In this document: positions 131-13,879 of the stretch, one piece after another | Position numbering within the stretch: position 1 is the first letter of the stretch | Layout of the letters: each line of letters opens with the position of its first letter | DNA from: Myxococcales bacterium | GTDB lineage: Bacteria > Myxococcota_A > Polyangia > Polyangiales > Ga0077539 | Assembly (NCBI GenBank): GCA_013298625.1 | Contig: JAAFIF010000028.1 | Coordinates: forward strand, 1-64,000 | DNA: 64,000 nucleotides | Reading direction: 5' to 3' | The notes under the pieces: generated by a model | What the model was told of the DNA's origin: nothing | The model's input: the letters and a program-made list of their open reading frames with translations, nothing else | Database searches by the model: none | Made by a program: the position numbers and the translations under genes

Positions 131-345
131 TCCATTGGCTAGGGCAGGCGGACGCCTCGCCCGCTCCGCGACGCTTCGTCGCGCAAAGCCCGGGGGCTCG
201 TCTCCCGGGCGTGGGGCGAGCGTGGCTCCGGGCCCCTTCGCTGTTTCTCCACACAGGTCTTGGGCAACCATGAGCCCTTGGGCTCCTCGCCCCTTCACCT
301 GTGATTTTCCAGGCAGAATCTCGGCAACCATGAGGCCCAAGTGGC
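131..345 (+). repeat. Mosaic intergenic repeat, copy A (modules ATTGGCTAG / GGCTCGTCTCCCGGGCGTG..CGAGCGTGGCTCCG / CTTCGCTGTTTCTCC / TTGGGCAACCATGAG / CTTCACCTGTGATTTTCC)
   Basis: Direct comparison with 12190-12383 and 12545-12735: the same sequence blocks occur in a different order. Confidence 0.8.
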
Positions 346-6484: not shown

Positions 6485-8416
6485 ATGCTCGAGGCCATGG
6501 AAGCGCTGCTGCTCGACGACGTGTCCGAGTCGCTGTGGAGCGAGTTTCACCGCGACGACCGCGGCGCTCCATCGAGCGCCCTCGCCCTCCCGCACCTCTC
6601 GCGCTGGGCCCGCGCGAAGAAGCTCGGCGCCCCGCTCGACGGCGGCCGCGACGATCACCTCATCGAGCGAGGCTCGGGCTTGCAGTCGCGCCTCGAGCGC
6701 GTCGAGCCGCTGCTCATCGACGCCCGCGCCGTCCTCGACGACGCCGCGGCGGTCATCGCAGAGCGCGATTTCGTCCTGCTCGTCACCGACGACGAAGGCG
6801 TGATCGTTCGCCGCGCCGGGGGCGGCGGGTTCGCTGACGAGTCCAAGCGCGTGCGGCTGATCGAAGGCGCGCACTGGAGCGAGCGAGCCCGCGGCACCAA
6901 CGCCATCGGGACCGCCCTCTCCGAAGGGCGCCCCACGGTCGTGCGCGGCCACGCCCACTCGGGCCAGCGGTTTCATCAGCTCGTGTGCAGCGCGGCCCCG
7001 GTGCGCAGCGCCGACGGCGCCGTGCTCGCGGTGATCGACGCGACCTCGGGCATGGGCCGCCACGACGCGGACGTGGGCTTCATCGTGCGGGCCACGGCGC
7101 GCGCGCTCGAAGAGGTCCTTCGTCTTCGCGCCTACGCGTCGGCGGGCGCAGCCGTCGCGCGCACGCTCGCGCGGTCGATCGAGCGCATGAGCTGCCCTGC
7201 GATCGTCGTCGAGTCCAACGCGACGATCCGCAAGGCCAACGACGCAGCGCGCGCGGTCCTGCGGCTGAGCGAAGGGCAGTCGGTGACGACGGCGCTCGGG
7301 CTACGTTGGGAGGACCTGCGCGACGACGCCCTGCGCTCGACGCCGCGCGCCATCGAAATCAATCAACAGCAGTTCGTGCTGAAGACCGAGGCGATCTTGG
7401 GGCGCGACGGCGCGGTGCTCGCGGTGCTCGCGGTGATCGAGCGCGCGCAGCGACCGAGCGTCGCGTCCGCGAAGAGCGCGAGCAAAGGGCCCGACGCGTT
7501 TGGGGCGATCTTCGCGGAGGACGAGGCGATGAGCGCGTCGATCGCGAGGGCGCGGCGCTTCGCGACGACGGACGTCCCGATCGTGCTGCTCGGCGAGACG
7601 GGCTCGGGCAAAGAGCTGATGGCGCGGGCGATCCACGACGGGAGCAAGCGCGCGGCGGCGCCGTTCATCGCGTTGAATTGTGGTGCGGTGGCCCCGCAGC
7701 TGCTCGAGGCCGAGCTGTTCGGCGCGGCGCCGCACGCGTTTACCGGCGCGGATCCGCGCGGACGAACCGGTCTCTTCGAGGCCGCCCACGGCGGAACGCT
7801 CTTTCTCGACGAGGTGGCAGAGATGCCCGTCGCGATGCAGGCCGCGCTCTTGCGCGTGCTCGAGAGCGGAGAGCTGCGGCGCGTGGGCGAGGCGCGCTCG
7901 CGCTCGGTGGACGTTCGACTGGTGTGCGCGACGTGCAGAGACCTCGAGCAGCTCGTGCGCGAGGGGACGTTTCGCAGCGATTTGTTCTACCGCTTGAAGG
8001 GCGTCTCGCTCACGTTGCCCGCGCTGCGCGCGCGGACGGACCGGGTCGAGCTCGCGCGGCACCTCTTGGCGCGCAAGGGATCGACCGCGACGCTCTCGGC
8101 GAGCGCAGAGCACTCGATCCGCACGCACCGTTGGCCGGGCAACATCCGCGAGCTGCGCAGCGCCCTCGACGTCGCGATCGCCCTGTGCGACGGCGACGAG
8201 CTCACCGCCGAGCACCTGCCGCTGACCGTCGATGCGCAGCCCGACGCGGGCGCCGAGCGGCCCGTGATGCTCACCGAGGTCGAGGGCTCGGTCGTTCGAC
8301 GGGTGCTCAGCGAAGTGGCCGGCAACGTGAGCGCGGCGGCCAAGCGGCTCGGCGTCGCGCGCAGCACGCTCTACCGCATGATGCGCAAGCACGGGCTGAG
8401 CGTCGAGCCCGAGTGA
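6485..8416 (+). CDS. Sigma54-dependent enhancer-binding protein, AcoR-like (GAF-like N-terminus, AAA+, Fis HTH)
   Basis: GETGSGKELMARAIH (Walker A), GGTLFLDEVAEMP (Walker B), HAFTGA loop, C-terminal GNVSAAAKRLGVARSTLYRMMRKHGL. Confidence 0.93.
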   Translation: MLEAMEALLLDDVSESLWSEFHRDDRGAPSSALALPHLSRWARAKKLGAPLDGGRDDHLIERGSGLQSRLERVEPLLIDARAVLDDAAAVIAERDFVLLVTDDEGVIVRRAGGGGFADESKRVRLIEGAHWSERARGTNAIGTALSEGRPTVVRGHAHSGQRFHQLVCSAAPVRSADGAVLAVIDATSGMGRHDADVGFIVRATARALEEVLRLRAYASAGAAVARTLARSIERMSCPAIVVESNATIRKANDAARAVLRLSEGQSVTTALGLRWEDLRDDALRSTPRAIEINQQQFVLKTEAILGRDGAVLAVLAVIERAQRPSVASAKSASKGPDAFGAIFAEDEAMSASIARARRFATTDVPIVLLGETGSGKELMARAIHDGSKRAAAPFIALNCGAVAPQLLEAELFGAAPHAFTGADPRGRTGLFEAAHGGTLFLDEVAEMPVAMQAALLRVLESGELRRVGEARSRSVDVRLVCATCRDLEQLVREGTFRSDLFYRLKGVSLTLPALRARTDRVELARHLLARKGSTATLSASAEHSIRTHRWPGNIRELRSALDVAIALCDGDELTAEHLPLTVDAQPDAGAERPVMLTEVEGSVVRRVLSEVAGNVSAAAKRLGVARSTLYRMMRKHGLSVEPE

Positions 8417-11313: not shown

Positions 11314-11943
11314 TCAGCGAGCGAGAGTGTTCTCAGCGCGCGCGCGGAGCCGGGCCAGCCGCTCGACGTCGCGCTCGCGCGGCCAATGGGCGGAGCAGCG
11401 ATCGAGCACGCGCAGCGCGGGCAGCGCGAGCGAAGCTCGTCGCGCAGGGTCCGAGAGCCACTCGTCGAGCGACTCCCACAGGGTAGGATCGATGAACTCG
11501 TCGCTCGCGCAGCGCTCGAACTCGCGCCACGCGAGCTCGTCGCTCGGGTCGCTCTCGAGCGCGCGGCACGCGAAGCTCGTCGCGTGATCGGCCCACGCTC
11601 CGGTGAGGCTCGCGGCGATCGAGGCCCACGCCCAGAGCGTCGAAGCGGCGCGTCCGCGGGTTCGCCCCGCGAGCTTCGTGAGCGGAATCCAGAGGTTCTC
11701 CGCGACGAGAAAGCGCCCGAGCTCATCCTCGTCGAGCAGCGATCGCAGGTCTTCGGTGAGCGCTCGCGCTGCTTCGTCTGCGCTCGGCTGCTCGTCAATC
11801 CAAGCAGCGAGCCGCGCGCTTCGCTTCGCTGCGGGCGATTGCGGAAGGTCGAGCAGGTCCACCGCCAGACGATGGCACGATCGCAGGGCGGCAGCGGCAT
11901 CGGGGGGGCCGACGGACAGCTCGTGATCGCCGAAACCGCTCAT
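11314..11943 (-). CDS. Hypothetical protein
   Basis: 209-aa ORF MSGFGDHELSVGPPDAAAALRSC..., preceded by an AT-rich intergenic stretch. Confidence 0.55.
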   Translation of the reverse strand: MSGFGDHELSVGPPDAAAALRSCHRLAVDLLDLPQSPAAKRSARLAAWIDEQPSADEAARALTEDLRSLLDEDELGRFLVAENLWIPLTKLAGRTRGRAASTLWAWASIAASLTGAWADHATSFACRALESDPSDELAWREFERCASDEFIDPTLWESLDEWLSDPARRASLALPALRVLDRCSAHWPRERDVERLARLRARAENTLAR

Positions 11944-12189: not shown

Positions 12190-12383
12190 GAGCCAATCGC
12201 TCGCGACGCGGAGCCACGCTTGGCTCACGCCCGGGAGACGAGCCCTCATGGTTGCCCAAATCTTGGGTGGAGAAACAGCGGCGAAGGGGCCCGCAGCCCA
12301 AGGGGGCGGGCATCAGCGCCCGCACCGTGACGGGTGTTCTCTACGGGCGAGGCGCAGCGGTCTCGCGACCGCAGCTAGCCAAT
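12190..12383 (-). repeat. Mosaic intergenic repeat, copy B (inverted relative to C)
   Basis: 12203-12253 is the reverse complement of 12663-12713 with one mismatch over 51 nt; AGCCAATCG occurs at both ends (12191-12199 and 12377-12385). Confidence 0.88.
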
Positions 12384-12544
12384 CGAGCTCGGCGAGGACT
12401 CTCGTTGCCTTGCCACTGTTCACACTGAAGACGCGATGCTCGACGCGCTCACCGTCGCCGCTCTCTGCATCGAGCGATGGCCGTGACCGAGTCGAGGACT
12501 GAGTCTTCAGCGTGGACCGCGGACGAGCATCGCGCGTTCGATTG

Positions 12545-12735
12545 TTCGCCATTGGCTAGCTGCGGGCGCGAGACCGCTGCGCCTCGCACCGAAGGTGCGC
12601 TGTTGCACGGCCCCTTGGGCTCCGGGCCTCTTCGCCGCTGTTTCTCCCGGAAGCTTTTGGGTAACCATGAGGGCTCGTCTCCCGGGCGTGAGCCGAGCGT
12701 GGCTCCGCGTCGCTTCACCCTGTGATTTTCCCGAT
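12545..12735 (+). repeat. Mosaic intergenic repeat, copy C
   Basis: Inverted partner of copy B; shares CTTCACC(C)TGTGATTTTCC, CTGTTTCTCC and GGCTCGTCTCCCGGGCGTG with copy A. Confidence 0.88.
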
Positions 12736-12859: not shown

Positions 12860-13879
12860 ATGCGAACGCTCTTGCTCGGCGCCACGGGGCTCATTGGACG
12901 GCCGCTGTGCGAGGCGCTCGTCGCGCGCGGGGACGACGTCACCGTGCTCTCGCGCGGCTCGACCGAGGTCCCGCCGGGCGTGCGCGCGCTCGCCGCGGAT
13001 CGCTACGACCCCGAGGCGCTCGGCAGGCTCGACGGAGAGCGCTTCGACCTCACGGTGGACCTGCTCGCGTACAACGCCGAGCACGTCGCGCAGCTGTTCG
13101 CGGTGCGGCGATTTGCGCCCGGTCGCGTGGTGATGATGTCGACCGGTCAAGTCTACCTCGTGACCGATCGCGAGCCGCCGTTTCGCGAGCGAGACTTCGA
13201 CGCGCCGGTGATCGCCGAGCCCGAGCCGGACACGCGCGCCTGGCACAACTGGAAGTACGGGGTCGAGAAGCGCGAGGCCGAACGCGCCCTGCGCCGCGCG
13301 GCGAGCGAGCGGGGGATCGAGGCGATGGCGTTGAGGGTTCCGGTCGTGCAGGGAGAGCTCGACGGGCTGCGAACGCAGCGTTTGTGGGCGTGGATCGAGC
13401 GCATCCTCGACGGCGGCCCGGTCCTTCTGCCGGAGGGCGGCGAGCAACGGCTGCGCTTCGCGTACGCCGGAGACATCGCTGCAGCGATCGTCGCGCTGAG
13501 CGATCGGCCCAGCTGGGAGGGCGTCAGCGCCCTCAACGTCGCCCAGCCGCGCGAGTGCACGCTGCGCTCGTTGGTCGAGCGCCTCGCCGCGTGCCTCGAT
13601 CGAAACCCCGAGTGGATCGACGTCTCGGGCGACGAGCTCGATGCGGCGGGCGTCGCGCGGGACTTCATCAGCTACTGGGGCCGGTACTACTCGCGCCCCG
13701 ATCCCACGATGGCGATCGAGCGCTTCGGGCTCGATTTGCAGAACGAAGATCGCTGGCTCGAGCCCGTCGTGCGCGCGCACCTCCACGGCGCCACGCGGCC
13801 GCAGCGATCGCACGAGGGATACGCGCACCGCGCGGCAGAGATCGCCCTCGCCCGCAGCCGCCGAGCGCGCGCAGGCTGA
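12860..13879 (+). CDS. NAD-dependent epimerase/dehydratase family protein
   Basis: MRTLLLGATGLIGRPLCEALVARGDDVTVLSRG (GxxGxxG Rossmann). Confidence 0.88.
   Translation: MRTLLLGATGLIGRPLCEALVARGDDVTVLSRGSTEVPPGVRALAADRYDPEALGRLDGERFDLTVDLLAYNAEHVAQLFAVRRFAPGRVVMMSTGQVYLVTDREPPFRERDFDAPVIAEPEPDTRAWHNWKYGVEKREAERALRRAASERGIEAMALRVPVVQGELDGLRTQRLWAWIERILDGGPVLLPEGGEQRLRFAYAGDIAAAIVALSDRPSWEGVSALNVAQPRECTLRSLVERLAACLDRNPEWIDVSGDELDAAGVARDFISYWGRYYSRPDPTMAIERFGLDLQNEDRWLEPVVRAHLHGATRPQRSHEGYAHRAAEIALARSRRARAG

Follow-up and report, generated by a model that had tools for sequence, protein, structure and literature searches.

What kind of sequence is the long inverted pair that lies, in a 64,000-nucleotide window of a Myxococcales genome, in the gap between a minus-strand open reading frame (start at 11943) and an epimerase gene on the plus strand (start at 12860)? 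The original prediction described two 51-nt segments, 12203-12253 and 12663-12713, as reverse complements with a single mismatch, and this is exactly what we find, with the mismatch at 12221. The further homology proposed beyond these segments also holds, the match covering the whole 12203-12713 unit; its arms align over 117 nt at 88% (12203-12319 with 12597-12713; BLAST E = 5e-39) and again, further in, over 37 nt at 97% (12347-12383 with 12551-12587; BLAST E = 7e-13). Of its 14-mers the region shares 78 with its reverse complement, where shuffled sequences share 0.2 on average, and folded as single-stranded DNA the unit reaches a predicted -246 kcal/mol, 25 standard deviations below the shuffled value of -124 ± 4.8. 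The sequence AGCCAATCG does occur at both positions given for it, 12191-12199 and 12377-12385, but only the second occurrence is part of the repeat, being the complement of the foot ATTGGCTAG, and the first looks incidental.

Read from the centre outwards, each arm begins with a foot (ATTGGCTAG in the window copy) and the dinucleotide CT, followed by hairpins H1, H2 and H3, at least one 60-bp unit (T) and an outer tip (Table 1). Foot, CT and the H1 hairpin, a 6-bp stem closed by a 4-nt loop, constitute the head. H1 has the consensus GCGGKC-loop-GMCCGC; H2 takes the forms GCACC/GGTGC, GCGAC/GTCGC or longer; and H3 is a variable G+C-rich stem around CCCCTTGGGCT. The centre carries a sub-terminal GAGGACCGCGGRCGAGC-type motif (GTGGACCGCGGACGAGC in the window copy) that also occurs in the transposase-bearing element of a congener, G001; we rejected the idea that the centre derives from the transposase gene of the window's own genome (G000) by simple internal loss, as only a sub-terminal motif is shared.

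Table 1. Parts of the window copy (window coordinates) and the Y1 transposase genes of the same genome (contig and position)
Feature	Position	Strand	Evidence or remark
Whole inverted-repeat element, one non-autonomous copy	12203..12713	.	outer limits approximate; homology to C100 starts at window 12202
Outer tip, left arm	12203..12244	+	common to C100, C5, C1, C111
60-bp T unit, left arm	12245..12301	+	nhmmer; pattern count
Left hairpin H2, long-loop form GCCCG...CGGGC	12318..12348	-	sequence
Left REP head: CTAG foot, CT spacer, H1 GCGGTC-GCGA-GACCGC	12357..12378	-	head motif 12352-12377 on -; covariation
Centre between heads, no gene	12385..12550	.	head-to-head gap 179-181 nt
Right REP head: CTAG foot, CT spacer, H1 GCGGGC-GCGA-GACCGC	12556..12577	+	head motif 12557-12582 on +; covariation
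Right hairpin H2, CGCACC-GAA-GGTGCG	12585..12599	+	compensatory changes at two of six pairs
60-bp T unit, right arm; inner end part of hairpin H3 (12606-12626)	12615..12671	-	nhmmer; H3 pair types
Outer tip, right arm	12672..12713	-	arm-to-arm match
Y1 gene	C70:41157-41489		flanked by inverted arms, 90% identical to window 12549-12638
Y1 gene	C215:54202		flanked by direct 97% repeats of 'X' cores, seen at C70:106k, C41, C95, C111, C133
Y1 gene	C233:100170		flanked by 430-nt inverted repeats related to window 132-202
Y1 gene	C110:323		flanked by repeats related to C116, C148, C95

By pattern count there are 63 T units in G000, none in G001 and one in a second congener, G002, which makes T a species-specific extension; the hairpin core is genus-wide. 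One frame of the 60-bp unit is stop-free in the copies read by eye, and we considered and rejected a coding repeat: variable sites are not concentrated on third positions, and the other frames are broken in some copies. Two copies depart from this plan. At 2900-3000 of L042 (G000 C178) the centre and both heads are missing and a near-perfect palindrome remains, apparently through deletion between short GCGA matches. At 1195-1327 of L047 (G002 C331) stands a lone G000-type arm with a T unit, 86-89% identical, in a genome otherwise free of T units; it is either a relic or a between-species transfer.

The window copy belongs to a dispersed family. Its 206-nt left arm gives 67 BLAST matches in its own genome, many at contig ends, and full-length copies including the centre occupy eight further assembled sites there (84-97%). 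Among 56 other genomes searched, clear members occur only in G001 and G002; plasmid records yielded nothing, an exact 17-mer scan of a genome-contig collection gave 48 matches, close to chance by our own estimate (about 30), and the Myxococcales record L073 has only a weak partial match that is not convincing. A scan for the head motif returned 36 copies in G000, 19 in G001 and 34 in G002; six further genomes from the same bacterial family had no copy, and the reversed pattern, run as a control, was absent from every genome scanned. Dozens of host-genome copies, conservation in both congeners and a modular make-up make 'mosaic intergenic repeat', the name first given to the pair, an apt one, and the sequence is not a known annotated repeat.

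The heads of G000 divide equally between the strands (18 forward, 18 reverse) and pair in inverted orientation, facing inward. The gap between paired heads is 179-181 nt in 13 of 13 pairs in G000, 174-175 nt in G001 (7 pairs), and 177, 220, 239 or 352 nt in G002 (8 pairs, mostly 177 or 239); where a transposase gene lies inside, it widens to 585 (G000), 671 (G001) and 605 nt (G002), leaving room for the gene. This fixed spacing indicates that the doublet rather than the single hairpin is the unit that spreads, as has been argued for REPINs (PMC3116915). The family thus displays the inverted doublets, fixed spacing and high copy number of REP-type repeats, and for the window copy the intergenic position is established. 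A search for empty sites (the window copy, two C152 copies, C218, C42 and the C70 transposase) found no clean one, because alignment of the flanks reaches the element edges, or stops close to them, while the opposite side has been rearranged; for the window copy, neither an empty site nor a target-site duplication could be shown against G001 and G002, because synteny of the left flank with both is broken.

The stems vary in a manner that preserves pairing. Across 29 distinct arms from the three species, 98% of H1 and H2 pair cells hold standard pairs, a percentage that leans upwards because these arms were picked for the compact H2 form. In the same arms both sides of a pair have changed together 16 times, against 4.1 ± 1.6 in shuffled sets and none in slid controls. 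H3 occurs as four fully matched stem types (CCCGC/GCGGG, CCCGG/CCGGG, CCTGG/CCAGG and CCGGG/CCCGG) and one further type with a mismatch, and some H1 stems, including that in the right head of the window copy, contain one G.A mismatch. This covariation supports the cruciform or hairpin that had been suggested for the pair.

Four Y1_Tnp genes are present in G000, each between copies of a different repeat family (Table 1); the flanking repeats are inverted at three of the four, with inverted arms of 154-431 nt. The C70-type transposase, whose flanks belong to the window family, is present as a single copy in each of G000, G001 and G002, and the C70 protein groups in one clade with its orthologues, G001:C2 and G002:C287 (support 0.999). 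Exactly two REP heads flank each of these three genes; at 18 other Y1 loci compared there are no such heads. The four G000 proteins all keep the HUH motif, the W and the tyrosine. The motifs DH[IV]H, WQ and Y---Q--HH occur together in the C70 and C233 proteins; the C215 and C110 proteins fit in part (DHAH and RH; WS), and most relatives fit. Read as 159 aa, the C70 protein has DHVH and Y--xQ and no further Pfam domain. Scores against the NCBIfam IS200 model are 51-64 bits (cut-off 55, exceeded by three of the four), whereas the REP_Tyr_transpos model (NF047646) gives 23.9-27.4 bits for three and no match for the fourth, so far under its cut-off of 80 that by this model the proteins are not RAYTs. 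The closest solved structures are IS200/IS605 transposases, and a search of the genome for TnpB (Cas12f1-like_TNB domain) was negative. Among the other genera of the bacterial family, most Y1 genes have the same motif and most are repeat-flanked, from which the arrangement is probably general in that family.

Two of the Y1 loci deserve description in their own right. In L140 (G000 C70) the transposase-bearing element, 1360-2289, lies between the two copies (1286-1359 and 2290-2363) of a perfect 74-bp direct duplication; the duplicated stretch is host DNA and takes in the 3' end of the adjacent gene. This is unusual for IS200-type transposition, and the origin could be a long duplication of the target or a tandem duplication that arose separately. 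L149 (G013 C3), from a genome of the same order, holds a Y1 gene with the classical RAYT-type motif, NHVH / YIERNP, with several repeats of 23-38 nt, some inverted and some direct, on its flanks, and provides a useful outgroup.

Foot and enzyme can be followed across the three species. Nearly all copies in G001 and G002 have a GTAG foot; nearly all copies in G000, including the window copy and the flank of the G000 transposase, have CTAG. A REP of Marinomonas consists of GTAG, two bases, a 5-bp stem and a 4-nt loop, and is cleaved by its own transposase, the foot guiding the cleavage site (PMC8266576). The heads described here, TAG-CT-6-bp stem-4-nt loop, have nearly the same layout as this experimentally cleaved REP (PMC8266576).

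We conclude that the window unit is very probably a non-autonomous, foldback-shaped REP doublet (REPIN-like) whose cognate enzyme is the single-copy C70 Y1 transposase. The copies, their fixed pairing, the stem covariation and the exclusive association of heads with this transposase make mobilisation by the C70-type enzyme the best reading, and the early suggestion of a non-autonomous mobile element is borne out by the dozens of copies and by a cognate transposase flanked by the same repeats. By analogy, we infer catalysis by this enzyme, mobility in trans and a single-stranded intermediate. In single-stranded DNA, such as the lagging-strand template, the arms would fold into hairpins; the transposase would recognise the TAG foot together with H1 and nick nearby; and the doublet would then be moved or copied as one unit to another intergenic site. 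Tandem 60-bp units lengthen the arms further, and insertions into or beside the arms by REP families that have Y1 transposases of their own would give the mosaic look.

Other readings were weighed against the same observations. It is unlikely that the family is a formerly mobile, now static REP relic whose copies gene conversion keeps similar or selection retains as BIME-like protein-binding sites. The single-copy transposase, the many copies at assembly breaks (80-97% alike) and arms that recombine as modules would all suit such a relic, but the catalytic motifs are conserved in all four Y1 proteins, the foot base has changed alike in the G000 copies and the transposase flank, centre lengths are lineage-specific, and the 60-bp unit has been amplified in G000 only. 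We regard as quite improbable a structured RNA or 3'/5' UTR element, spread by recombination only, whose hairpins act in transcripts as a terminator, attenuator, mRNA stabiliser or small RNA. Such an element, an alternative raised in the original prediction, would be consistent with the strong folding and covariation and with the intergenic site between divergent genes; however, it predicts neither inverted doublets of fixed spacing nor heads equally frequent on both strands, Rfam covariance models have no match in the window, and the element contains a single weak terminator-like site. Nor would it predict orthologous transposase genes placed exactly between the same hairpins, an arrangement that argues for a DNA recognition site instead. 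That the family is an ordinary insertion sequence of IS200 type whose internal copies are degenerate is highly improbable in our judgement. This would explain the Pfam Y1_Tnp and NCBIfam IS200 matches and the nearest solved structures, yet not the one C70-type gene per genome, the lack of TnpB, the long inverted arms or the many doublets without a gene; terminal inverted repeats are absent from IS200 elements (PMC2817692). A false palindrome made in assembly might be suspected from the repeat's presence at many contig ends, but can practically be dismissed: the assembly itself has further full-length copies that are independent and differ in their flanks, and two other assemblies contain homologous pairs.

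How does a REP doublet mobilised by a C70-type enzyme compare with known systems? With REPINs and RAYTs (Bertels & Rainey 2011, PMC3116915; Nunvar et al. 2010, PMC2817692) the family has in common a hairpin-forming, intergenic inverted REP doublet as the replicative unit, a single-copy Y1 transposase enclosed by a pair of inverted REPs (found in all three congeners), the GTAG foot of G001 and G002, and several families to a genome, each paired with a transposase of its own. It differs in the CTAG foot of G000, in a transposase with a class 1-type Q motif (Y--xQ) rather than the RAYT Y..NP (class 2), and in REPs made of three successive hairpins (about 70 nt) with 60-bp tandem extensions, through which the unit reaches 500 nt against roughly 100 nt for published REPINs. 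It is therefore of REPIN/RAYT type by architecture and presumed action, and not a classical RAYT system by its protein. TIRYTs and TIRtrons (Di Nocera et al. 2013, PMC3733652) likewise comprise Y1 genes between long inverted repeats that are also dispersed in the genome; most published TIRYTs, however, are of subclass 2.1, with a C-terminal HTH domain and without REP-like structures (PMC6006769), whereas the window family has a GTAG/CTAG-footed hairpin and a short protein lacking NHVH..LNP motifs.

By the motifs DH[IV]H, WQ and Y---Q--HH, and by low copy number, the transposases resemble TnpA-Y1 subclass 1.2 (Quentin et al. 2018, PMC6006769), which is reported mainly from Cyanobacteria and Bacteroidetes and without REP association (PMC6006769); by contrast, all four Y1 genes of G000 are repeat-flanked, and footed, amplified repeats are present. 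Class 3 TnpA-Y1, described as standing between IS and REPtron (PMC6006769), also combines a Q-type tyrosine motif with dispersed hairpins, but has NHVH, Y----Q and a CnGA foot where the window family has DHVH, Y---Q--HH and GTAG/CTAG. Unlike IS200/IS605, with a multi-copy, near-identical element, G000 has four different Y1 genes, all between repeats. Eukaryotic foldback (FB/TU) transposons, too, have long inverted arms of tandem sub-repeats, with other enzymes and other hosts; the likeness is architectural only. A literature search of myxobacterial scope found nothing relevant on REP/RAYT systems. The new features are a class 1.2-like transposase signature together with REPs, a species-specific 60-bp arm extension, and nesting with other families.

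The assignment links a previously anonymous palindrome with an identified enzyme, and the three species form a natural series along which transposase, foot sequence, stem and length of the centre have changed in concert. It also bears on the origin of REP systems from insertion sequences, because the proteins are IS200-like more than RAYT-like and yet stand in a REP-type arrangement. A broader proposal, for and against which we would give equal weight, is that throughout the bacterial family class 1.2-type Y1 transposases, thought not to be REP-linked, mobilise GTAG-footed foldback elements, several such pairs per genome inserting into one another, and that in one lineage the foot changed from GTAG to CTAG together with its transposase. 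Were this so, the foot change would be a natural test of guide-sequence coevolution, and the family-wide mobilisers a candidate intermediate on the way from IS200 elements to REP systems.

The window family is nested with at least three other repeat families, each flanking its own Y1 gene, and many assembly breaks in G000 are these nested palindromes. A second mosaic site lies at the start of the window (132-335), where two T units on the minus strand, at 224-274 and 278-334, adjoin a REP-like unit (132-202; CCATTGGCTAGGGC plus a hairpin AGGCG-GA-CGCCT) that belongs to the C233 transposase family. Elsewhere the 'X' core, made up of successive hairpins with GCGCGCCATCAAGATGGCGCGC among them, takes the place of the usual centre between T arrays (L139 1113-1339 and 2204-2430, L036, L034, L038 and L039), and it also forms the direct repeats that flank the C215 Y1 gene. 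Another inverted repeat pair, in L043 (about 7642-7760 and 8033-8165), may consist of orphans, as no corresponding Y1 gene was identified in G000; it has dozens of relatives in G001 and G002, and one G002 copy adjoins a Y1 gene at C439:5179.
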